Shown here: positions 3,382-31,399 of the stretch, in pieces
Numbering within the stretch: position 1 is the first letter of the stretch
Layout: every line of letters begins with the position of its first letter
Origin: a virus
IMG/VR virus record: IMGVR_UViG_3300047476_000180
Span: 1-41,522 of that record
Reading direction: 5' to 3' (one strand)
Length of the DNA stretch: 41,522 bases
Position numbers and translations under genes: made by a program
The notes under the pieces: generated by a model
Databases searched by the model: none
Told to the model about the DNA's origin: nothing
Seen by the model: only the letters and a program-made list of their open reading frames with translations

Positions 3382-5403
3382 TTACGTAGCCGAGCCAATA
3401 CCGCGAATGGCATCAATAAGCGCAGACAAGTCCTGCATCCCGGTCGTTTGCGCCACAGCACTCTGAGTACTAATTGGAAGCCCAGACAGCATACTCTGCT
3501 TGAATTGAAGCTGCTTATACGGATAAGCCCTAGCCTCTTCAAATTGAGCCCGCTGCGCGTCGAGAGCTTGCTGTTCGATGGCGCTTTGTTGTGCGCCCGC
3601 GCCAAGTTGTGCTGCCAGACCTTTAAGCCCCATCTCACCCTGTTGAACGCCGAGGTTACCTTGAGTCTGAGCGGCGCTAAGTGCGTTTTTGAGGCTTTCC
3701 AAACCATAATTAGCGCCGAATTGCTTGGACTGTTCTCCAAGCTGTTGACCAGCCAGACCGTATTGAGCGCCGAGTTGTGCTGCTGTCATACCCTGACCAG
3801 CACCAAACTGTCGAGACTGCTCGCCCATCTGTTGGGCGTTGAGCCCCATTTGAGCTTCCTGCATCCTTTGAGCCAGCGCCTTGTCGTAGGCAGTTTGAAG
3901 CCCGGTAGCTTGAATGCCGCCAATCTGTCTATTAAGTGCCTCTTGGTTTGTAGCCCGCATGATGGCGTCTCGACTACCCCCGAAAGCACCGGCCTGTGCA
4001 AACTTAGCGAGATCGGCTTGCTGGTTTATTTGTGACTGCCTCGCCGCTTCACGCGCCTGAACGTCTACAACATTTTGTAGATACGGATTCATGTAGCTCT
4101 GCACAGAGCCAACCGGACCAAGCCCAGTATCAAACTGACCGGCTTGGTATGCACCGGGTGCTTGGAACTGATTACCAAACTGCGTAGGAGAGTACTGCAT
4201 CCCCTGCATCTGCCCAGCAATATTACCGGCAGTCTGTGCGGCTTGGCCGATAGCACCGGGAGTTTGGAAATTTTGGTAGCCTGTAAACGCTTGTTGTTGC
4301 AGCGGCGAAGTTCCAGCAGTCAACTGCCCCGTATAGGCTTGGTACGGCTGGTTGCCGAGTGCGTTGGCTTGGGACAGCATATCCGTGACATACGGCCCCG
4401 CCCATTCGGAGAGGTTGCTAGTGACTGATGTACCAGCAGTAGGTGTTTTACCGCCTTCATTAAAAGCCACTGCACCGCCACCCGCGTACCCAGCAATACC
4501 ACCGGGCATGAACTTAGCCGGGTTGATCTGCTTGCCTTGCTTCTTCGTGCCAGTACGTGCCTTACGAACGCGGTCCATCATCTTGTACAAAACATCCGCA
4601 CCAGCCTTGGAATTGCCATTGCCAAGATGCGACACGACATCGGCAGGGATCACGAACTCACCGTGACTGAGCTTGGCAGCTTGCTTACCGTCAATGTCGG
4701 TGTTGATCTTGTCTGCCATGCCGTCCGTAGGCCCGTCTAGATAGCGAGGCGGTTTTGTCGCACCACCACGGGCAAGTCCCATGATTCCACCTTCAGCAGC
4801 GTAAGTAGTCGCCTTGTACGGCTGACCAACAGCCCCGGCACCATAGGCACGGGTAGGAATGACATTGGTAGGTTGCACGGCTTTGCGCGTCAAGTCTGGA
4901 CTGCCTAGAAAACCACGGGCTTGATTTTGAATTTTACGCTGATCAAGCGTGGACTTAATGGCGTACATCGCCAAAATAGCGTCAAGAATGCTACGGCCTG
5001 TCGATTCTTTGTCCTTTAGTGAATCCGTAGCACGTTTGACAATATTTTTTGACGGGGTTGCCTTACCCCCTGCAATACCAGAACTACTGTATTTGCCCGC
5101 GTTAAAAGAGCCATATGACTGCCCAGTGCGCGGATCGTACAGTGTATTAACTCCCGTTACCGGGTCATACGACATACTTGGGCCAGAAATATCCTGCTCT
5201 GGGCCCGCTACGCTAGGATCATAGTATGTGTTGGCATACGGATCAGCAGGGTTGTAATTAGTCAGCCCACTATTGGCGCGAGGATCATAAGGCTCGGGGC
5301 CAAAAAGCGGTGTACCTTGCAAATCCCAGTTATCTACTTGCTCATCTGCGGGCGGTTGATAATCGCTCTCAGCGGTGGGATCATAAAAATACTCGTCGCT
5401 CAT
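3382..5403 (-). CDS. Gln/Gly-rich virion protein with GEFVIPADVVSHLG motif (673 aa)
   Basis: Four regions can be seen. Residues 1-100 are acidic and Tyr/Pro-rich. Residues ~135-160 form a helical stretch. Residues ~200-320 carry YAAEGG, LARGG, GYAGGG and FNEGG glycine motifs around SHGEFVIPADVVSHLG (246-261), followed by a basic KARTGTKKQGKQ stretch. The last ~330 residues are Gln/Ala/Gly-rich with loose repeats such as AAQLGAQYGLAGQQLGEQ. I recall the central GEFVIPADVVSHLGNG block from other environmental phage proteins, but it has no assigned function known to me. An internal virion or tail-associated structural role is inferred from size, composition and position. Confidence 0.8.
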   Translation of the reverse strand: MSDEYFYDPTAESDYQPPADEQVDNWDLQGTPLFGPEPYDPRANSGLTNYNPADPYANTYYDPSVAGPEQDISGPSMSYDPVTGVNTLYDPRTGQSYGSFNAGKYSSSGIAGGKATPSKNIVKRATDSLKDKESTGRSILDAILAMYAIKSTLDQRKIQNQARGFLGSPDLTRKAVQPTNVIPTRAYGAGAVGQPYKATTYAAEGGIMGLARGGATKPPRYLDGPTDGMADKINTDIDGKQAAKLSHGEFVIPADVVSHLGNGNSKAGADVLYKMMDRVRKARTGTKKQGKQINPAKFMPGGIAGYAGGGAVAFNEGGKTPTAGTSVTSNLSEWAGPYVTDMLSQANALGNQPYQAYTGQLTAGTSPLQQQAFTGYQNFQTPGAIGQAAQTAGNIAGQMQGMQYSPTQFGNQFQAPGAYQAGQFDTGLGPVGSVQSYMNPYLQNVVDVQAREAARQSQINQQADLAKFAQAGAFGGSRDAIMRATNQEALNRQIGGIQATGLQTAYDKALAQRMQEAQMGLNAQQMGEQSRQFGAGQGMTAAQLGAQYGLAGQQLGEQSKQFGANYGLESLKNALSAAQTQGNLGVQQGEMGLKGLAAQLGAGAQQSAIEQQALDAQRAQFEEARAYPYKQLQFKQSMLSGLPISTQSAVAQTTGMQDLSALIDAIRGIGSAT

Positions 5404-5415
5404 ATCACACCTCTC

Positions 5416-6675
5416 TTACGCTGTCCGCAGGGACTGAAGTAGTTCAGCCACAGTGCGCGGCTGGCGGTTTTTGTCGCCCAAGTAGCTACTCAGGAACATC
5501 GAGTTTACGTCGAACGCGGGCATAGGTGCAGAAGCCGCCGTTTGCTGCACGATAGGACTCTGCCCGCCAGTATCCATCAACCCCAAGCCAAGCAACAACG
5601 CCACCAACTCGCTGTTATCTTGTGCGGGCGCGGCAGCGACAGGAGACGGCGCAGGAGCGGGTGCAGGGCTAGGCGCGGCAGCGACAGGAGCGGGTGCAGG
5701 GCTAGGGGCAGCAGAACCGCCGCCAGAGCCACCACCATAATCACCAATCAAACTAGGATCAGGCACATACCCAACAGGGTCACGCGGTCCAACCGCCATT
5801 TGCTCACGGTCAAGTTCACCCGGCGCAAACCCACCCTGCGGGGCAAAAAGACCACCGATGCTGGTAATGTTGCCGGGCTGAAATAGGCTGGCAACATTAG
5901 TACTTGACCCTTCGGGGTTAAAGTAGCGCCACGCATCTTCCGCGAGATTCGCCGCGCCGGGGAAAGTGGCTTGATTGAATTCGGACTTCGCCACGTTCAT
6001 GGCGATGTTGCCAAACACATCATTAGGGTCTTGCCCGCGCATCAAACCGCTAGTGGCGGTTCGCGCTGCTGCTGCGGCCATTGGGCCGAACTCAGACCCG
6101 ATCTCTCGCCCAATACCACCCGAAGCTGCGGCGATGCCAAGGTTGCCAAAATCAACGTCCCCAGTTTTGAGCAGACTCGGGATGCCGTAGCTTGCTGCAC
6201 CCTGTACAGCGCCTTGTGCCAGCGGGCCGAGAGAGGCTGCTTCTTTACCAAGTATTGGCACCAACTTGCCGGTAACCGTATCAGCCACAAAATTCTTCGC
6301 GATTGCCGTAGGATCAACCCCTTGAGAAACATCGTAAGCCGCGTTCGCCGCTGCTGTAGCAATCGGCCCTACCGTAAAATTGCCGATAGTACTGAGAACT
6401 TTTCGGGGGTTATCCGTTATGTAGTTCCACGCTTTTTCAAGAATGTTGGGTCCAATTTTTCCAATTTCCGGATTAAAAGGCGTTTCCGTGCCTTGGTAAT
6501 TTGAAGTTATACCTTGCGCCTCACCGCTACCGAAGCTGCCCCCAAACCCACCTGAATCACCACCGCCGAAGCCGCCGAAACCACCAAAACTACCCCCACC
6601 AACATCCGTTGGCATATAGTAGGTATCCCCGGTTTCGGGATTGATGATCGGTGTAGTTCCAGTAGCTGCTGCCAT
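5416..6675 (-). CDS. Gly-rich putative virion protein (419 aa)
   Basis: Not recognised as a named family. The N-terminus (about residues 25-52) is a run of Gly, Ser and Phe. Residues ~80-230 are Ala/Gly-rich and fairly hydrophobic, with segments that could touch a membrane. Residues ~325-355 form a linker of repeated Pro-Ala units. The C-terminal ~60 residues, with SSYLGDKNRQPRTVAELL, look folded. The ATG at 6675 lies 7 bases after the upstream stop. Composition and place in the tail region suggest an internal or ejected virion protein, which is inference. Confidence 0.75.
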   Translation of the reverse strand: MAAATGTTPIINPETGDTYYMPTDVGGGSFGGFGGFGGGDSGGFGGSFGSGEAQGITSNYQGTETPFNPEIGKIGPNILEKAWNYITDNPRKVLSTIGNFTVGPIATAAANAAYDVSQGVDPTAIAKNFVADTVTGKLVPILGKEAASLGPLAQGAVQGAASYGIPSLLKTGDVDFGNLGIAAASGGIGREIGSEFGPMAAAAARTATSGLMRGQDPNDVFGNIAMNVAKSEFNQATFPGAANLAEDAWRYFNPEGSSTNVASLFQPGNITSIGGLFAPQGGFAPGELDREQMAVGPRDPVGYVPDPSLIGDYGGGSGGGSAAPSPAPAPVAAAPSPAPAPAPSPVAAAPAQDNSELVALLLGLGLMDTGGQSPIVQQTAASAPMPAFDVNSMFLSSYLGDKNRQPRTVAELLQSLRTA

Positions 6676-10016: not shown

Positions 10017-10856
10017 ATGTACGTCTACATCTGGAAAACGCCAAACGGCGTCCCCTTTTATGTTGGTTTTACCAAAACCAAGAGAAGATTTAATCCTTTT
10101 AATTCCGGCAATCGCAACTGGCTGTGCACACAAAAACTTGAAGAGCTTGGTGCAAGCAATGTAATTGTTGAACTGCGGCTTGTTGCTTCTGTCGAGGAAG
10201 GAGCAGAACTTGAGCGCAAACTTATTGCAGAAATTGGCCGTATTCAGACTGGAACGGGACCGCTTACCAATTTGCGCGAAGGAGGCGAAGGAGTTCAAAG
10301 TCCTACTCCTGCGCATCGTGAAAAATTGCGGCAAGTGATGCTTGAGCCAAACCATCCAGCACGAAGCGAAGCTGCCAGAGCAAAAAAACGTGCCCGACTA
10401 AATGCACCAGACGTAAAACAAAAGTTCCTTGGTGAAGCCAACCCAGCAAAGCGGCCAGAAGTACGTGAAAAAATTAAAGCCAAGTGGGAAGACCCTGAGC
10501 ATAGGGCAAAAGTAATTGCTGCTCGTACTGGGTTAACCCGTGATTTGCCGGAAGCCGCTAAGCAAGTCTTACGCGATAACTTGGCAAATAATGATGCCAT
10601 GAAATCATGGAGCGAACGCAATGGCAAAGATCCAGACTTTGACGCCAAACGCATTGCAGGGATCAGAGCAGCACAGCCAGCAAGGGCCGCAAAGATGTCT
10701 GATCCCGTTGCCCTAGCGCAACGCAAAGAGCGCCTCAAAGTCACAATGAATTCACCAGAGTTCAAAGCTAAACGCGCCTTATGGGATACACCAGAATATC
10801 GACAGAAGCTGTCCGAGAAAAAAAAGGAATACTGGGCAAAACGCAAAGCAGTGTAA
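10017..10856 (+). CDS. GIY-YIG homing endonuclease, inserted antisense (279 aa)
   Basis: The first ~95 residues form a GIY-YIG nuclease domain: VYIWKTPNGVPFYVGFTKT carries the two tyrosine motifs, then the expected basic residues (KRRF), a conserved Glu in ELERKLIAEIG, and the Asn in GPLTNLREGGEG. The C-terminal ~180 residues are Lys/Arg/Ala-rich helical repeats that probably bind DNA. A good ribosome site (AGGAG) precedes the ATG. It is the only rightward gene inside the leftward block: it diverges from the tail gene starting at 9975 and ends directly against the holin stop (TAA then TTA, no gap). This marks it as a mobile free-standing homing gene. Family assignment is firm; the target site is unknown. 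Confidence 0.9.
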   Translation: MYVYIWKTPNGVPFYVGFTKTKRRFNPFNSGNRNWLCTQKLEELGASNVIVELRLVASVEEGAELERKLIAEIGRIQTGTGPLTNLREGGEGVQSPTPAHREKLRQVMLEPNHPARSEAARAKKRARLNAPDVKQKFLGEANPAKRPEVREKIKAKWEDPEHRAKVIAARTGLTRDLPEAAKQVLRDNLANNDAMKSWSERNGKDPDFDAKRIAGIRAAQPARAAKMSDPVALAQRKERLKVTMNSPEFKAKRALWDTPEYRQKLSEKKKEYWAKRKAV

Positions 10857-18694: not shown

Positions 18695-18895
18695 TTAAGC
18701 CATCGGACCCCGAGCCATCGTGCCCTTGGTGGCCGCACCGTTACCGCGAGTCTTGATACCCGAGGTTTTGGGAACAGGCGGCTGGTTGGCAGCGATATTA
18801 CCAACAACGAGGCACTTCTGGTCTTTCAGGGTTTCGACGTTGTTGCCGTCGTACCCGTTACCGACTTGCTGCTTGTAAGTCTTAGGTGTGCTCAT
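18695..18895 (-). CDS. Small basic protein (66 aa)
   Basis: A 66-residue Gly/Lys/Asn-rich protein (TYKQQVGNGYDGNNVETLKD...) ending in TRGNGAATKGTMARGPMA. It lies tightly between two other genes with 3-base spacing, which supports its being real. The low-complexity basic C-terminus suggests an unstructured tail binding nucleic acid or another virion protein. No family was recognised. Confidence 0.6.
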   Translation of the reverse strand: MSTPKTYKQQVGNGYDGNNVETLKDQKCLVVGNIAANQPPVPKTSGIKTRGNGAATKGTMARGPMA

Positions 18896-21762: not shown

Positions 21763-22476
21763 TTAGTTGACAAACATCTGCCTTGGCACAAAACGTATAG
21801 CGGAACGATCTCTATCTTCAGAACTAGCAAAGTCCCAGTCAAAGTCGTACTGAGCCTTGAGGATGTCCAGTCGATCCATCGCACCGGGGATCTTGAGCGC
21901 AAGGTAGTAAGCCAGCCCAGACACCATCGCCGGGATGAACCGGAACGGAACGTCCATCGTATTGACACCGCTCCCAGCGTCCTGAATCCTGCGCAGCCGC
22001 CAGTATACGAAGGTGTAACTCTGCGATCCATCCGGCGTAGGCCAGACCGTGATGTTGGGCGTAGGGGCTTGACGGTTGATGTAAACCTGAATCGGCCTAG
22101 CCTGAGTCAGCTTGTTTGGGATGGACGAGTACGTAGAAACGCTGATCCGCGTGATGGTCAGGTCTGCCTGCGTTGAAACATTGCCTGCTCCCGTGCGGAT
22201 CACATGCTCCATCAGGTCTACCGTATCAGACGGAAGGTCGTAGGTGGCAGTGCCTTGTACCAGAGGAATGCTCCCCTGCTCAACGGTCCACATATTGATG
22301 CCACGGTTCGCCCAGTCTGCAAACAGCAGGTTCAGGCTGCGCCGCGCAGTCTTCATGTCGTAGCCCGTGCGAAGCTCGGCACCGCAGCGTTCAAAGGCTT
22401 CCTCGACCAGTTCAGACAGATCGAGGTTAAACGTCGTTGTCTGGGACGTATTTCCAGTATATGAGAGGACGGGCAT
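21763..22476 (-). CDS. P22 gp4-like head-closure (tail accessory) protein (237 aa)
   Basis: The N-terminal region LDLSELVEEAFERCGAELRT and KTARRSLNLLFADWANRGIN matches what I recall of the P22 gp4 family, which binds beneath the portal to stabilise packaged DNA. The rest fits too: PLVQGTATYDLPSDTVDLME, a central ITVWPTPD, and a C-terminal FIPAMVSGLAYYLALKIPG helix. Length is usual for the family. P22 gp4 also has cell-wall hydrolase activity; whether this one does cannot be read here. This is the best sign of a short-tailed particle. Confidence 0.85.
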   Translation of the reverse strand: MPVLSYTGNTSQTTTFNLDLSELVEEAFERCGAELRTGYDMKTARRSLNLLFADWANRGINMWTVEQGSIPLVQGTATYDLPSDTVDLMEHVIRTGAGNVSTQADLTITRISVSTYSSIPNKLTQARPIQVYINRQAPTPNITVWPTPDGSQSYTFVYWRLRRIQDAGSGVNTMDVPFRFIPAMVSGLAYYLALKIPGAMDRLDILKAQYDFDWDFASSEDRDRSAIRFVPRQMFVN

Positions 22477-23797: not shown

Positions 23798-24046
23798 CTA
23801 CCTCTTTGCTGTTAGCGCAGAGCGCTTGAATGCCTTGGCTGTGGGAGCGCCAGCAGTACCGGGCTTACGCATCTTTTCACCTGAGCCCTGAGCAATCCGC
23901 TGACGCTTGGCGTTGATGTTTGCGTACAGCCCAATCGGCCCACCTTCAGCATACTCGGCAAAGTCGGTGCTGTCCCGTCGCGCCTTGGTTTTGGCGCTAG
24001 GCATCTTCGCGGGGTTGATACACCCCATACCTCGGGACGGACGCAT
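23798..24046 (-). CDS. Small basic YAEGG protein (82 aa)
   Basis: I place the start at the ATG at 24046 (MRPSRGMGCINPAKMPSAK), which shares bases with the preceding stop in TGATG and has AAGGTGG upstream; a GTG at 24061 is less likely. The protein is Lys/Arg-rich with DFAEYAEGGPIGLYANINAK in the middle and GEKMRKPGTAGAPTAKAFK at the end. I recall similar small proteins from other environmental phages, but no function is assigned. It is the last of the basic glycine-motif cluster. Confidence 0.75.
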   Translation of the reverse strand: MRPSRGMGCINPAKMPSAKTKARRDSTDFAEYAEGGPIGLYANINAKRQRIAQGSGEKMRKPGTAGAPTAKAFKRSALTAKR

Positions 24047-24459
24047 CACACCACCTTGCACTTAGTCTTGCCGCGTTGAGCGCAGCCGTCGATCCTGCCG
24101 CCCTTGGCGTAGCCCTTGGCGCAGCCGCCCTTTTTCAGCCCCATAGGACTTTCTCTTTGCGCCATCACCGGACGCGCAACGGGAAGACGCATACCCTGTG
24201 CCGCCAACCGAGATTGCATTTGAGCTCGCAGCTTGTCAGCATCGGCAGGATTAAATTGTGGACGGCTCATGCCAAGGCTTGACATGGTGCTATTCATCTT
24301 GGCAATTTCTTCCGGCGTAGCTGGGCGACCACCGCCCAAGTCTTTGATGAGTTGAGAAAGTCCTGCCCCACCAGCGGGAGTCATGGACGGGCTCATCATG
24401 CGACTAGGGCCAGCGCGGCCCACAGGCATACCGCCCATGGCAAATTTCTTCGGCTTCAT
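24046..24459 (-). CDS. Basic protein with C-terminal YAKGG-RGKTK tag (137 aa)
   Basis: The protein starts MKPKKFAMGGMPVGRAGPSR. A helical, Gln/Met-rich middle (about residues 60-100) is followed by the C-terminal tail KKGGCAKGYAKGG, then GCAQRGKTKCKVV. The tail is shared in form with three neighbouring genes that otherwise differ in sequence and length. The ATG overlaps the upstream stop in ATGA. The tail has several Cys and Lys residues. Function unknown; a small virion or assembly protein is inferred. Confidence 0.78.
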   Translation of the reverse strand: MKPKKFAMGGMPVGRAGPSRMMSPSMTPAGGAGLSQLIKDLGGGRPATPEEIAKMNSTMSSLGMSRPQFNPADADKLRAQMQSRLAAQGMRLPVARPVMAQRESPMGLKKGGCAKGYAKGGRIDGCAQRGKTKCKVV

Positions 24460-25391
24460 ACAAACCTGCCCTTCGTCTTACCGCGCGACTCGCAGCCACC
24501 GCCACGGACAGAGCCACCCTTGGCGTAAGCCTTGACATTGCCGCCCTTCTTGAACCCGGCTTCCATGTCGGAAGAGCGCATCTCATCGTACCTACGCTCT
24601 GCTTCTTCTCGCTTCGCGGCAAGTCGCGCACGGTCAGCCGCGCCGCGAGCAGTAGACTCCTTAAGCTCTTGTGCCCGCCTAGCCATATCTTCAATCATCT
24701 CCCTCGGCCTTGCAGCAGCGCGAGTTGCAGCTTGGGTAGCGGCCTCGTCGGCTAGCTTCGACGCTTTAGCAGCTTGGTACATCTTGCCGAGCTTCTGCGC
24801 CCCCGCAATCCCTGCGCCAATACCCGCACCGATACCAAGCGGAGGGAGCGTCTTTTCAGCTAGTTCCTTAGCGCCACGGCCAAAACGCTCAAGCCTAGAC
24901 TCTTCGCGGGCGGGCGTATTTTGCCCCATCGGCTTAGGAACTTCGCTCGCTCTGGATTCCGCAACAGTGTCCTTAAAAGACCCAGCCGCAGCGCCCCGAC
25001 CGCTCGGAGCCACATTGTCACGCGGGCGACCGCTAGGACCGGGAGGGCTAGACTTGGAAACAGCCTTGGGTGCAGAACGCTTAACAGGAGGAGCTTCATC
25101 CTCTTCACCGGCAAGACGGCGCATGATCGCTGCGCGAGCCCGCATCCGGGTATCGTCATCAATATTCTTGTTCTCACCTTCGGTGACGCCACCTTCGGCG
25201 TACTTCTTCACTTTGCCGCCGCAAGCCTTCTTGGCCGGAGGTTTCGCGGGAGCCGAAGCTGCTTCTTTAGGGGCGGGGGCAGTATTGGTGAGCGAACGCT
25301 CATACGCCTTCCCCATATTTACCGCCGCCGCGTCCTTGCGGGCGTTCTCAATTGCTAGTTGTTCGCGCCGGGTACGTTCGGTGTCAGCCAT
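24456..25391 (-). CDS. Lys/Ala-rich protein with C-terminal YAKGG-RGKTK tag (311 aa)
   Basis: A charged helical N-terminus is followed by KKACGGKVKKYAEGGVTEG near residue 60, a long Pro/Ser/Arg-rich disordered part, and one hydrophobic Gly-rich segment (LPPLGIGAGIGAGIAGA, about residues 185-200) that might enter a membrane. A coiled-coil stretch rich in Arg, Glu and Ala follows. The tail is KKGGNVKAYAKGGSV, then GCESRGKTKGRFV. It is the largest member of the tag cluster. Function not recognised; a DNA-ejected internal virion protein is one possibility. Confidence 0.75.
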   Translation of the reverse strand: MADTERTRREQLAIENARKDAAAVNMGKAYERSLTNTAPAPKEAASAPAKPPAKKACGGKVKKYAEGGVTEGENKNIDDDTRMRARAAIMRRLAGEEDEAPPVKRSAPKAVSKSSPPGPSGRPRDNVAPSGRGAAAGSFKDTVAESRASEVPKPMGQNTPAREESRLERFGRGAKELAEKTLPPLGIGAGIGAGIAGAQKLGKMYQAAKASKLADEAATQAATRAAARPREMIEDMARRAQELKESTARGAADRARLAAKREEAERRYDEMRSSDMEAGFKKGGNVKAYAKGGSVRGGGCESRGKTKGRFV

Positions 25392-25401
25392 TTCCTGCTC
25401 C

Positions 25402-25734
25402 TTACTTGCAGCTTCCGCCGCCCATCATCTTGACGATCTTGCCCTTGGTCTTGCCGCGAAGCTCGACACCGCCGCCCTTGGCGTAGCCTTTGGCTTCCTT
25501 CATTTCATGCTGGATCATGGACTTGGGAGCGCCTTTCTTCTTCATGAAAGCCACTTCCTTCTTCATCATTTCCTTGGATTCTTTCATATCACCACCTTTT
25601 GCAAATTTACGGCCCTTATCGGCCTCAGTGAAGTCGCGTCCAACGGACTGCGGAATTCCCGCCTTCTTTGCAAAGGAGGGGTTATGGGCAACAGCCGCCA
25701 TCAGGCGATGTTGTTTAGAAGAGGTAGAAGGCAT
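25402..25734 (-). CDS. Small DUF3008-like protein with YAKGG-RGKTK tag (110 aa)
   Basis: The N-terminus SKQHRLMAAVAHNPSFAKKA and following GIPQSVGRDF resemble the small DUF3008-type proteins found in phages and bacteria; this is from memory. FAKGGDMKESK, a Lys/Met-rich helix, then KGYAKGGGVELRGKTKGKIV follow, and unusually there are 11 more residues after the tag. The ATG shares a base with the upstream stop (TAATG). Role unknown; basic and probably bound to nucleic acid or other virion proteins. Confidence 0.8.
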   Translation of the reverse strand: MPSTSSKQHRLMAAVAHNPSFAKKAGIPQSVGRDFTEADKGRKFAKGGDMKESKEMMKKEVAFMKKKGAPKSMIQHEMKEAKGYAKGGGVELRGKTKGKIVKMMGGGSCK

Positions 25735-26105
25735 TATCGCATCCTGCCTTTTGTTTTGCCACGTTGAGCAATGCCGTCACCGCGCCGGGAAGCAGTTTTA
25801 ATCAACCCACCCCGCGCTTTTGCGACGGGTTCTTCTGCTTCCGGGGGCTCATCAGCCATTGATTCTGTTACTTTGTCCATAACTTTCTGGACAACGTATT
25901 TTTTAGCTTCGCGTTTAGCTGTGCCAACAGGATCAATCATTGCCGACGCAGACCCAGCGGGCATCCCAGTCTGTTCATCCACGCCTTCGGCAATTTTACC
26001 GATCACGTACCCTTTGGGGTCAACAAGCCCAGAAGGCAAGCCCGCCTTTTCTAACTGCTTACCAGCGAGGTACTTAAGCGCAGCAACAACAATAGGGGCT
26101 GGCAT
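25734..26105 (-). CDS. Small protein with C-terminal RGKTK tag (123 aa)
   Basis: The first ~85 residues are a folded-looking helical domain (PIVVAALKYLAGKQLEKAGL, then IGKIAEGVDEQTGMPAG). The C-terminal part is acidic and then basic (PEAEEPVAKARGGLIK) and ends GIAQRGKTKGRMR. It is the first of the four tagged genes in transcription order. Despite the shared tail its main domain is unlike the other three. The ATG at 26105 follows the upstream stop by 3 bases. Function unknown. Confidence 0.78.
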   Translation of the reverse strand: MPAPIVVAALKYLAGKQLEKAGLPSGLVDPKGYVIGKIAEGVDEQTGMPAGSASAMIDPVGTAKREAKKYVVQKVMDKVTESMADEPPEAEEPVAKARGGLIKTASRRGDGIAQRGKTKGRMR

Positions 26106-26108
26106 TGT

Positions 26109-26351
26109 TTACTCCAAATTCCTACGCTCACGGATAGTGTCCAGCTTTTTTTCAAGCTGGTCGAACCGATCAAAGAGTTGTTTCATATCCTGCCTGAATT
26201 CTGCCCGCGTAATGTGATCCCGTGCAATTTCTTCGCGGGTGCGGTTGACGAGAATCCCAAGGCGCTGAATCTCAGCAAACTTGTCTTTAAGGATAAAGCC
26301 CATAATCCCAAGGACTACGCTGAGAACCGCGTTCCAGATCATCATTTCCAT
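26109..26351 (-). CDS. Membrane-anchored coiled-coil protein (80 aa)
   Basis: Residues 5-22 (IWNAVLSVVLGIMGFILK) form one transmembrane helix. The remaining ~58 residues are a charged coiled coil (RAEFRQDMKQLFDRFDQLEK). This layout, one N-terminal anchor plus a long coil, is shared by inner-membrane spanins and some holin-like phage proteins. It is far from the endolysin-holin pair, and no outer-membrane spanin is evident next to it. Spanin-like or virion-membrane roles are both possible. Confidence 0.75.
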   Translation of the reverse strand: MEMMIWNAVLSVVLGIMGFILKDKFAEIQRLGILVNRTREEIARDHITRAEFRQDMKQLFDRFDQLEKKLDTIRERRNLE

Positions 26352-26354
26352 GAC

Positions 26355-26609
26355 TTAACACTTCCATGCCCGCAAACTTTTGTTGATGCGGCTGTTGGGA
26401 TCGTTTGCCGTTTTCTCGCTGGTGAGCTTGGCTTTCATGCCTTTCATCCGGGCACAGAATGAGTCACGGCGAGGACCGCCTTCAGGCTGCGGAGCTTTAA
26501 GCCCCGGCTTGCCCGGATTAGCTTTGTTGTACGACGCACGGCCTTTGGCATTGAGCCCACCGGACTCTGCCTTGCCTTCCTTGCGGGTCCAAGCTGGGGT
26601 TTTTGCCAT
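26355..26609 (-). CDS. DUF6321-like small phage protein (84 aa)
   Basis: The pattern SGGLNAKGRASYNKANPGKP, then LKAPQPEGGPRRDSFCARMK and a final Leu-Arg-Ala-Trp-Lys-Cys, is one I recognise from many environmental phages (DUF6321, from memory). The conserved Cys near residue 52 and the C-terminal Cys may be functional. The protein is strongly basic and probably unstructured in part. No role is established. It sits between an adhesin gene and the basic tag cluster. Confidence 0.83.
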   Translation of the reverse strand: MAKTPAWTRKEGKAESGGLNAKGRASYNKANPGKPGLKAPQPEGGPRRDSFCARMKGMKAKLTSEKTANDPNSRINKSLRAWKC

Positions 26610-29472: not shown

Positions 29473-30348
29473 TTATATCACGGGTGTTTGGGGAATGCAA
29501 GCGTCTGCGTAGCGAAACACCCAACCTTTTTTTGGGCCTTTGGATAGTGGCTGACCGGACTTGAGGGCGCGGCGCAGCGTAGGCATCAGCAAATTTACAG
29601 CCGCAAGTGTCTCGGTCAGACTTGTAAAATTACACTCGGCACCTTCCGGCGAAACAGCAATAACCGCCTTGCTCATCTTGGCACGGGACTCATCCGTGTG
29701 CTTTCGTCCTTGCCAATGGCTGTAGCTGCCCGCTTCTGCGGCGGCGCGTATCTTTGCCTTACCTTCTTCTGACACCTTCCGCCCGGCAGCTTTTGGTTTG
29801 CCTATCTGGGCGGCGCTTATCTTGGCTTTGGTTTCTGCGCTTCGTTCTTTGCCCGCCCAAGGGGTTACGGGGTTTAGTTTCTTTGCTGCGCTAATCTTGG
29901 CTTTTGTTTCAGCACTGTGTGTTGTGCCAACACGCGGATGATTGTTGTAGTCAGCCGCGTAAAAGTCTTTAAGCTGTTGGGAAATTTGCGCCTTTTGTTC
30001 GTCAGACATTAGCTTGCCAAAGTTGAAATGCGCTTCACCATATACCCCGCGCCAAGGCGCAACAGCGGCCGCGCCAGAGTTGTAGCAGTAAGGCTCCCCA
30101 TGATGCTGCTTCAGCCACCAATCCTCAACCGACTGTAAATTTCCACCATCCGCTACTTCTTCAACTACTTCAAACACAAACTTTGCTTCCCCGTATTTGT
30201 TCCATGCGGCTTGCAAATGTTTGCAGTGGTGTCTGTTGCCGCGCAGTTGCTTACGATGCTCTCGGAACCTCACCTTCTTGTTGGTGGTACTTCCAACGTA
30301 AAACTTGTCGTTGACCAAATTGATGATCTTGTAGATTACCTGTGTCAA
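29473..30348 (-). CDS. GIY-YIG homing endonuclease with NUMOD repeats, TTG start (291 aa)
   Basis: Residues 4-95 form a GIY-YIG domain (VIYKIINLVNDKFYVGSTTN, then RFREHRKQL and LQAAWNKYGEAKF). Four NUMOD3-like DNA-binding helices follow, each of the type HSAETKAKISAAK. The C-terminal ~55 residues look like a NUMOD1-type helix-turn-helix (TSLTETLAAVNLLMPTLRRA). The start codon is TTG with a strong GAGGAG site 6 bases upstream; a later start would remove the first tyrosine motif. It lies just after the capsid terminator. Family firm; target site unknown. Confidence 0.92.
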   Translation of the reverse strand: MTQVIYKIINLVNDKFYVGSTTNKKVRFREHRKQLRGNRHHCKHLQAAWNKYGEAKFVFEVVEEVADGGNLQSVEDWWLKQHHGEPYCYNSGAAAVAPWRGVYGEAHFNFGKLMSDEQKAQISQQLKDFYAADYNNHPRVGTTHSAETKAKISAAKKLNPVTPWAGKERSAETKAKISAAQIGKPKAAGRKVSEEGKAKIRAAAEAGSYSHWQGRKHTDESRAKMSKAVIAVSPEGAECNFTSLTETLAAVNLLMPTLRRALKSGQPLSKGPKKGWVFRYADACIPQTPVI

Positions 30349-30481: not shown

Positions 30482-31399
30482 TCAAGTGGAGCCGGGCGAG
30501 CCGAAGATACCCAGCGGGTCCGACACCCCGAAGCTGTACCTCTCTCGGGCCTTGTACCGCATATTGCCCGTATCGAAATCACCGTCCATTGACGTAGACA
30601 TCGGGGTACGAACAAAGTGCTTCAGACCGTTGGGCACATCCGTCGTCAGGAACCAAGCGTTGGTGTCGGTCAGGAAGTGGTTAACGGTGTAACCTTCCGG
30701 GACCGAGCCATTGTTCTTCAGAGCGTTGATGTCGTTGTCGGTCGTGCCAACACGGAGAGAAGTCTCCAGCAGGCGGGTCGCGACGAACATCAGGCTCGGC
30801 GGAACAATCAGCTTACGGGGCTTGGCGGCGATCAGCAGACCACGCTCATCCGTCCACGCAGCGATCTGGATCACAGCCGCTTCAAGGGAGGTTTCGTTCA
30901 GGTCAGTACCCGTCGAAGGACGGTTGCTGTTGGTGCCACCGGACACCAGCGGATGGTCGGTCGCGAACAGAACCTTGCCGTCACCATAGGTCGGGTTGCC
31001 CGAACCAGTGAAGCCTTGGTTAAGAATCGCAGCCGCCTTGATCTGCTTGGTGTAAGCCATGCCACGGGCCAGCGCCTTGGTATAACGAGCCGAGAGGCTG
31101 TCATACAGGTTGTCTTCCATCGCCTCTTCGGTGATGGAGAAACCCATAGCGATGGTTTCGTGCTGGTAACGCGCAGTCCACGCCTCTTGAGCGTTGTCAT
31201 ACGCGATGGCCGCGCCTTCGGTCTTCACCGGGGCCTGACCAAAACCAGAGAGCTTGGTTTCTTCTTCAAAGGAACGCTCCGAGCTTTCCTGCTCGTAGAT
31301 TTCCTTATGCTCTTCGCCGTAGCGCTTGTACTCCAGACCAAACAGGGCGTTAAGACCCGGCAGGAGTTCCTTGAGTAGTTGTGAACGAGAAATTGCCAT
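30482..31399 (-). CDS. Major capsid protein, HK97-fold/Mu gpT-like (305 aa)
   Basis: The sequence GFGQAPVKTEGAAIAYDNAQ, AWTARYQHETIAMGFSITEE and ATDHPLVSGGTNSNRP matches the gpT-like major head protein family as I know it. A strong predicted helix (RYTKALARGMAYTKQIKAAA) corresponds to the spine helix of the fold, and LLIAAKPRKLIVPPSLMFVA to the central strands. No N-terminal prohead peptide is obvious. It lies downstream of scaffold and capsid-associated genes and ends at a strong terminator, as expected for the most abundant virion protein. Confidence 0.92.
   Translation of the reverse strand: MAISRSQLLKELLPGLNALFGLEYKRYGEEHKEIYEQESSERSFEEETKLSGFGQAPVKTEGAAIAYDNAQEAWTARYQHETIAMGFSITEEAMEDNLYDSLSARYTKALARGMAYTKQIKAAAILNQGFTGSGNPTYGDGKVLFATDHPLVSGGTNSNRPSTGTDLNETSLEAAVIQIAAWTDERGLLIAAKPRKLIVPPSLMFVATRLLETSLRVGTTDNDINALKNNGSVPEGYTVNHFLTDTNAWFLTTDVPNGLKHFVRTPMSTSMDGDFDTGNMRYKARERYSFGVSDPLGIFGSPGST

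Follow-up and report, generated by a model that had tools for sequence, protein, structure and literature searches.

What brings the same short peptide to the ends of several unrelated proteins encoded side by side in a viral genome? The question is raised by the IMG/VR virus record IMGVR_UViG_3300047476_000180, whose positions 1 to 41,522 (the window throughout this text) make up a 41.5-kb viral record with terminase, portal, GroES and major capsid genes recognized by PHROG matches. Its head genes run in one direction and are followed by four adjacent genes with a common C-terminal tail, an adaptor-like gene and the tail genes. A preliminary description of the sequence had reported these four open reading frames (ORFs) with RGKTK-type tails, and they are indeed present, all on the minus strand. 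Here we find that the tail, referred to below as the tag, is shared by proteins with unrelated bodies, is under selection at the protein level, occupies one late-gene slot and is linked to one capsid clade.

A selected C-terminal tag on unrelated proteins

Tagged gene 1 (24046–24459; 137 aa) ends in RIDGCAQRGKTKCKVV directly before its stop codon, and its tag, GYAKGGRIDGCAQRGKTKCKVV at about 24049–24117, scores 26 bits against a hidden Markov model (HMM) of the tag. The start of this gene overlaps by 4 bp the stop of tagged gene 2 (24456–25391; 311 aa), which ends in RGGGCESRGKTKGRFV before the stop and bears the tag KAYAKGGSVRGGGCESRGKTKGRFV at about 24459–24527 (16 bits). Tagged gene 3 (25402–25734; 110 aa) joins an N-terminal helical module, MPSTSSKQHRLMAAVAHNPSFAKKAGIPQSVG (phrog_16759), to the tag GGGVELRGKTKGKIVKMMGGGSCK at about 25405–25467. 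Tagged gene 4 (25734–26105; 123 aa) ends in RRGDGIAQRGKTKGRMR before the stop, with the tag ARGGLIKTASRRGDGIAQRGKTKGRMR (44 bits) and its core DNA at about 25737–25799. The pattern RGKTK[GC][KR], first proposed as the end of all four genes, needs amending for gene 3, which carries the RGKTK tail like the others and continues for 11 residues after the tag instead of two; likewise, the range first quoted for the cluster, 23798–26105, contains the four tagged genes together with an untagged one (23798–24061).

In shuffled versions of the last 30 residues, RGKTK arises by chance at 0.0005–0.0012 per protein, or about 4e-13 jointly. Once the tag module is removed, the four bodies have no significant BLASTP similarity (best E 0.12) and only a short KK[FY]AxGG motif recurs among them, which upholds the earlier claim that the proteins are unrelated, without whole-length homology.

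Tagging extends far beyond the four genes first described and takes in a large group of aquatic, uncultured phages. A search of a viral collection with a degenerate DNA pattern for the DGxAxRGKTKG motif matched at least 120 stretches, with the motif at or near the C-terminus in the translated matches. Many other environmental phages thus have similar tails, as the preliminary description had stated. The same pattern in 257 Gb of bacterial and archaeal genomes matched only two contigs of metagenome-assembled genomes (MAGs), one clearly viral and one probably chimeric; the Patulibacter MAG contig L124, with a tag on a membrane acyltransferase-like ORF at its end, was judged to be an assembly chimera. 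Tagged gene 4 as a query retrieved 409 relatives, mostly through the tag. Across 210 loci (1.8 Mb), the tag profile identified 541 ORFs at 14 bits or more, located in 205 loci, against 12 in reversed sequences. Counted among the 541 are two stretches of the window itself (L001, L002), a number of nested frames and 19 ORFs of a 61–73-aa protein with the motif near its N-terminus, so that there are fewer independent genes. Most matches end at the last residue or no more than 26 residues from it. Stripped of the tag, the bodies form 151 BLASTP clusters, 98 of them singletons; 151 is an upper limit for the number of unrelated bodies, since fast-evolving disordered bodies inflate the cluster number. 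Searches of annotated phages with the 28-aa consensus tag and with a 62-aa protein bearing the motif near its N-terminus gave no match, a literature search for the motif letters returned nothing relevant, and no conserved C-terminal packaging signal turned up in a general literature search.

Two other arrangements were seen among these sequences. A protein of 61–73 aa (L092 11860–12048, L023 5539–5724 and others) begins with the tag motif (MAYTKSADGIAKKGKTEGKNLGDSGP) and mostly ends in GRxxAKxxxQKRG. In L207 (5343–6092), a close relative of the window with a capsid identity of 92%, parts like tagged genes 3 and 1 are apparently fused, leaving one tag internal.

The consensus of 463 non-redundant, HMM-selected tags is a C-terminal module of about 20–27 residues that reads approximately KKGGxVxSASxR[AG]DG[ICV]AxRGKT[KR]G[RK][MFIY][VCIL]-stop. 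Its core, D-G-[ICV]-A-x-[RK]-G-K-T-[KR]-G, is followed by a basic-hydrophobic-hydrophobic end and is near invariant at D (97%), G (100%), A (96%), G (100%), K (98%) and T (100%). Variable positions keep their residue type (I/C/V, R/K, K/R and the hydrophobic end), and the codons of invariant residues vary freely among synonyms. For example, the threonine of the window's four tags is encoded by ACT, ACG, ACC and ACA, and the Arg, Gly and Lys codons vary too. Orthologues of tagged gene 4 have divergent bodies and a nearly invariant tag; more generally, mean identity within orthologous families is 0.76 for the tag versus 0.44 for the body, and tags on unrelated bodies are still 0.64 identical across families.

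One possible source of this pattern is descent only, in which a single ancestral gene was duplicated in tandem, the bodies drifted apart and the tag is a slow-evolving remnant with no shared partner. Tagged genes are indeed all neighbors in one slot, the L207 ORF at 5343–6092 looks like a fusion of two of them, and the short KK[FY]AxGG motif recurs in the bodies. This history is quite improbable as a full account, since the identity of 0.64 between unrelated bodies, together with the invariant positions, indicates that selection acts on the tag however it arose, and the bodies include independent modules (DUF6321, MPSTS) that are found elsewhere without a tag. Tags of the same contig differ at 6.57 of 19 positions and tags of different contigs at 6.74. 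Within a contig, then, tags are not especially alike, which speaks for a single shared constraint on them and against a recent origin by duplication or gene conversion; it is also what would be expected if all of them fit one conserved partner. The synonymous codon variation, the greater conservation of tags than of bodies and this lack of within-genome similarity agree with the original suggestion that the tag is kept by selection on the protein and is no fresh duplication. On the computed evidence, the tag stands as a selected, transferable module of the tagged phage clade.

The gene junctions add a second, DNA-level layer of constraint. The last Gly of GKT[KR]G is encoded by GGA or GGG in 61% of exact C-terminal tags, versus 6% at the first Gly, the Arg that follows it is mostly AGG or CGG, and an ATG overlaps the stop codon in 158 of 298 tags. 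The last tag codons thus double as the Shine-Dalgarno (SD) site of the next, often overlapping, gene, as at 24456–24473 of the window. It could be argued from the same codons that the whole tag is a by-product, its gene ends being conserved for the ribosome-binding site of the next gene. That explanation is barely credible for the DGxAxRGKT core. The core is located upstream of the SD region and stays conserved while its synonymous codons vary freely, so that the SD site cannot account for it; tags with 8–26 further residues, as well as the N-terminal versions, also keep the core away from the gene junction. We therefore rejected it for the core and retained it for the last three or four codons.

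One genomic slot and one capsid clade

In 15 long contigs, the window included, every one of the 45 tagged genes is located between the capsid gene and the adaptor gene, with none elsewhere. In the window, this slot is bordered upstream by the major capsid gene (30482–31399, minus strand; phrog_371, major head protein) and downstream by a tail-adaptor-like gene (21763–22476, minus strand; phrog_12985, no function assigned), which is named by its position and its likeness to the adaptor genes of DSL-LC04 and Pag-Yong1. These contigs have their genes in much the same order, which runs from TerL through portal, GroES, putative scaffold, capsid, DUF6321 and an 80-aa helix protein to between one and four tagged genes, then a phrog_16028 protein and the adaptor-like gene, with tagged genes at times interleaved with their small slot neighbors. 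The scaffold is putative because its gene is named by position and its only PHROG match has no function. An exception beyond the 15 contigs is L123, where a tagged gene stands just after the adaptor; a suspected enzymatic domain in L123 (4606–5217) proved unsupported.

Presence of the tag follows the capsid. When contigs were chosen by the window's capsid without regard to the tag (33 distinct contigs, each with at least 4 kb downstream), 29 of the 33 carried a profile tag and the other four had degenerate tags in the same place. A scan with the capsid of phage DSL-LC04 found the tag in only one of 24 contigs (L376). In the capsid tree, 69 tagged and four variant sequences are separated from 27 untagged and one tagged sequence by branches with 100/100 support, while support is weaker inside the clades and the long MinM2 branch is of unsure placement. 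The tagged gene of L376 (5678–6049; GDGIAIRGRTKGKLY) belongs to a phage whose capsid clade, that of DSL-LC04, is otherwise without tags, which suggests that a single tagged gene was transferred horizontally. Across tagged contigs, the capsid protein is unusually uniform (about 76–92% identity to that of the window), with terminases and portals varying more.

The tag comes and goes within individual families: DUF6321 mostly lacks it but has it in some contigs, and the MPSTS-type protein is usually tagged. Loss of the tail in close relatives that keep the same genes, which had been named as an observation that would count against a maintained signal, thus does occur for single families; at the level of the genome, each inspected contig of the capsid clade has one or more tags, intact or degenerate.

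The closest annotated records are Planktothrix phage Pag-Yong1 and its same-length counterparts, Synechococcus phage MinM2 and Planktothrix phage Pra-JY27, with a capsid 72% identical to that of the window. A 308-aa slot protein of Pag-Yong1 (UMO75986.1) and MinM2 (WEV89192.1) ends in RDGCAKRGRTKGRFI; unlike the window, Pag-Yong1 and MinM2 were found to have one tagged gene, with GR for GK in the core. Experiments are possible because these two phages carry the tagged slot protein. Annotated terminases of Pelagibacter phages HTVC027P and HTVC023P, phage 023Pt_psg01 and phage DSL-LC04 are 44–46% identical to that of the window. The head modules of HTVC023P, HTVC027P and DSL-LC04 resemble the window in gene content, including small basic proteins near the capsid genes, but lack a tag of the RGKTKG type. 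The literature on HTVC027P/HTVC023P-type phages, searched for relevant terms, contained no virion proteomics.

All 45 tagged proteins of the 15 long contigs have a pI of 9.3–12, and the tag is rich in K, R, G and S. The tag could accordingly be a nucleic-acid-binding tail, its peptide contacting nucleic acid rather than protein and its bearers acting as histone-like DNA condensers or RNA-binding proteins. The T4 internal proteins, the closest analogue, are likewise basic and suspected DNA binders (PMC9026906). We regard this role as unlikely, given that the invariant D, G, A and T and the conserved hydrophobic end are more specific than a generic basic tail, and that DNA binding would need neither one slot nor one capsid clade.

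The untagged neighbors in the window's slot, all on the minus strand, are the DUF6321 gene (26355–26609), tagged in some relatives (L046, L016, G009); the 80-aa protein gene (26109–26351), which encodes an N-terminal hydrophobic helix and a charged tail and is tagged in none of the 15 long contigs; and the gene at 23798–24061 (87 aa), with a phrog_16028 module. Elsewhere in the late region, two apparently inserted ORFs (10017–10856, plus strand; 29473–30348, minus strand) read as putative GIY-YIG-type homing endonucleases.

Tagged bodies and other RG-rich terminal peptides

Most tagged bodies are basic and disorder-promoting. Searches of Pfam, PHROGs and PADLOC with 80 representative bodies assigned no function beyond DUF6321 and the MPSTS module, and a PDB sequence search with tagged gene 3, the gene at 23798, the DUF6321 protein, the capsid and the adaptor found no credible relative. 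Two slot modules are linked to virion proteins, and we count this in favor of a role for the tag in the head. Matches to the N-terminal helical module of tagged gene 3 are found at the N-terminus of PHROG virion structural proteins and of annotated structural proteins of jumbo phages such as GAP32 and CBB; one tagged family has this module in the conserved form MPSTSKKQHNLMAAVAHNPAFAKKVGIPQSVG, and its relatives include the phiKZ protein PHIKZ165.1. A cyanophage protein annotated as structural (T4-like GC0119) has DUF6321 as its C-terminal domain, and in several contigs DUF6321 carries a tag of its own. Tagged proteins contain motifs of the [KR]x[FYM]xxGG type at about 30 times the density seen in the other proteins of their contigs (56 in 6,515 versus 71 in 252,056 residues), with 7.8 expected from composition versus the 56 observed. 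The same motif is also seen in putative ejection proteins of the family encoded at 3382–5403 of the window.

The bodies could also speak for a partner outside the virion, either a factor of the host or machinery for assembly or lysis (such as phage GroES with the host chaperonin, or the membrane), in which case the slot would hold host-takeover genes or assembly helpers. As is typical of genes for host interaction, the bodies are hypervariable orphans and lack Pfam matches; a strongly hydrophobic stretch occurs in 10 of 147 body families, and a GroES gene lies within the same head module. Yet a host partner would be expected to vary across hosts, and the tag is uniform and tracks the capsid clade; nor was there a convincing match to a defence family, the single PADLOC match being marginal (E 0.006). 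A non-virion partner is, in our view, rather unlikely.

A second C-terminal tag is present in the window on a 66-aa protein (18695–18895, minus strand), with the sequence TSGIKTRGNGAATKGTMARGPMA / GIKTRGNGAATKGTMARGPMA at about 18698–18766, encoded between the adaptor and the next conserved tail gene. Its form is SGIK[IMV]RG[TAN]GAATKGxxxRGPMA-stop, and both tags fit the pattern DGI/SGI..RG..TKG..R.M. A regular expression for this type and its near matches found 152 ORFs with a C-terminal motif, about one per contig, a number that includes a few tags of the RGKTKG type; annotated phages searched with the second-tag protein gave no match. HTVC023P encodes two proteins ending in DGIRGVGAAIRGHKFIGVK and SRGGGAAVRGMGFKGVF. 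These phages may thus have a wider family of terminal peptides rich in RG, with the RGKTKG tag as one of its forms. In the DSL-LC04 sister clade, a small protein begins with another conserved RG-rich terminal peptide, MAGRGMG[CA]ATRGGGAVESGP / MAGRGMG[CA]ATRGGGAVESGPKNK (L336 6120–6317, L344 4219–4416 and similar loci up to L408).

A possible docking address for head cargo

We tentatively favor a reading of the tag as a C-terminal docking or packaging address, common to variable head cargo and read by a conserved head protein. Under this hypothesis, a transferable short linear peptide, disordered on its own, would dock variable small, basic and mostly disordered proteins onto one conserved head partner during assembly, with the major capsid protein, scaffold or portal as candidates. 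The docked proteins would be built into or packaged in the virion, where they could help to organize DNA or be delivered with it. AlphaFold models place the tag of gene 3 in an unstructured region (pLDDT <50) beside confident helices (pLDDT ~86), as for a docking peptide; the tail of gene 4 is also unstructured, in a model of low confidence over its whole length.

In phage T4, small basic proteins with divergent bodies have in common an N-terminal capsid-targeting sequence of 10–19 residues, by which they are directed into the core of the prohead and so packaged in the head; similar sequences occur on other basic proteins of T4-related phages (PMC9026906). The T4 internal proteins (IPI, IPII, IPIII, Alt) and the tagged proteins are alike in being small and basic, with divergent bodies, a variable repertoire and one short terminal peptide. 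The address reading is favored because the anatomy of the system (a short conserved end, variable basic bodies, a late head-tail slot and one capsid clade) matches this logic.

Several observations weigh against the address reading. The T4 sequence is N-terminal and is removed by the prohead protease gp21, whereas the tag is C-terminal, longer (about 20–27 residues) and part of a different head module; a separate protein, of 62 aa, has a similar motif near its N-terminus. A scan of ten window proteins found no separate protease family, and where the capsid protein matched profiles of protease-capsid fusions, it did so only over their capsid half. A tag so strongly basic might bind nucleic acid in a generic way, and its linkage to one clade may come from common descent of the entire head module instead of co-specificity. 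Phages of the sister clade manage without a tag, and one of them, L376, combines a tag with a sister-type capsid. The virion location, the partner and the packaging step are what we infer.

Encapsulin cargo-loading peptides offer a second comparison: these short C-terminal peptides, borne by unrelated cargo, dock inside an HK97-fold shell. By analogy, the tagged proteins resemble encapsulin cargo in having a C-terminal peptide on unrelated proteins. Encapsulins differ in being cellular compartments with usually one or a few cargoes and another peptide sequence.

A more far-reaching version is possible but doubtful. The fixed C-terminal tag and the second, related tag might together form a clade-wide address system that recruits almost any small disordered body into the virion, with new head proteins born by gaining a tag in one slot and the last codons serving as the translation signal of the next gene.

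With the tag, the many orphan genes that separate capsid from tail genes in a widespread group of aquatic phages become open to concrete tests. If it is a packaging address, tagged proteins would be predictable as virion cargo from their sequence, their partner could be identified in pull-down experiments, and phage heads might be loaded with cargo by way of a C-terminal tag. For these phages, it means that a slot can turn over unrelated genes and yet retain one functional peptide.
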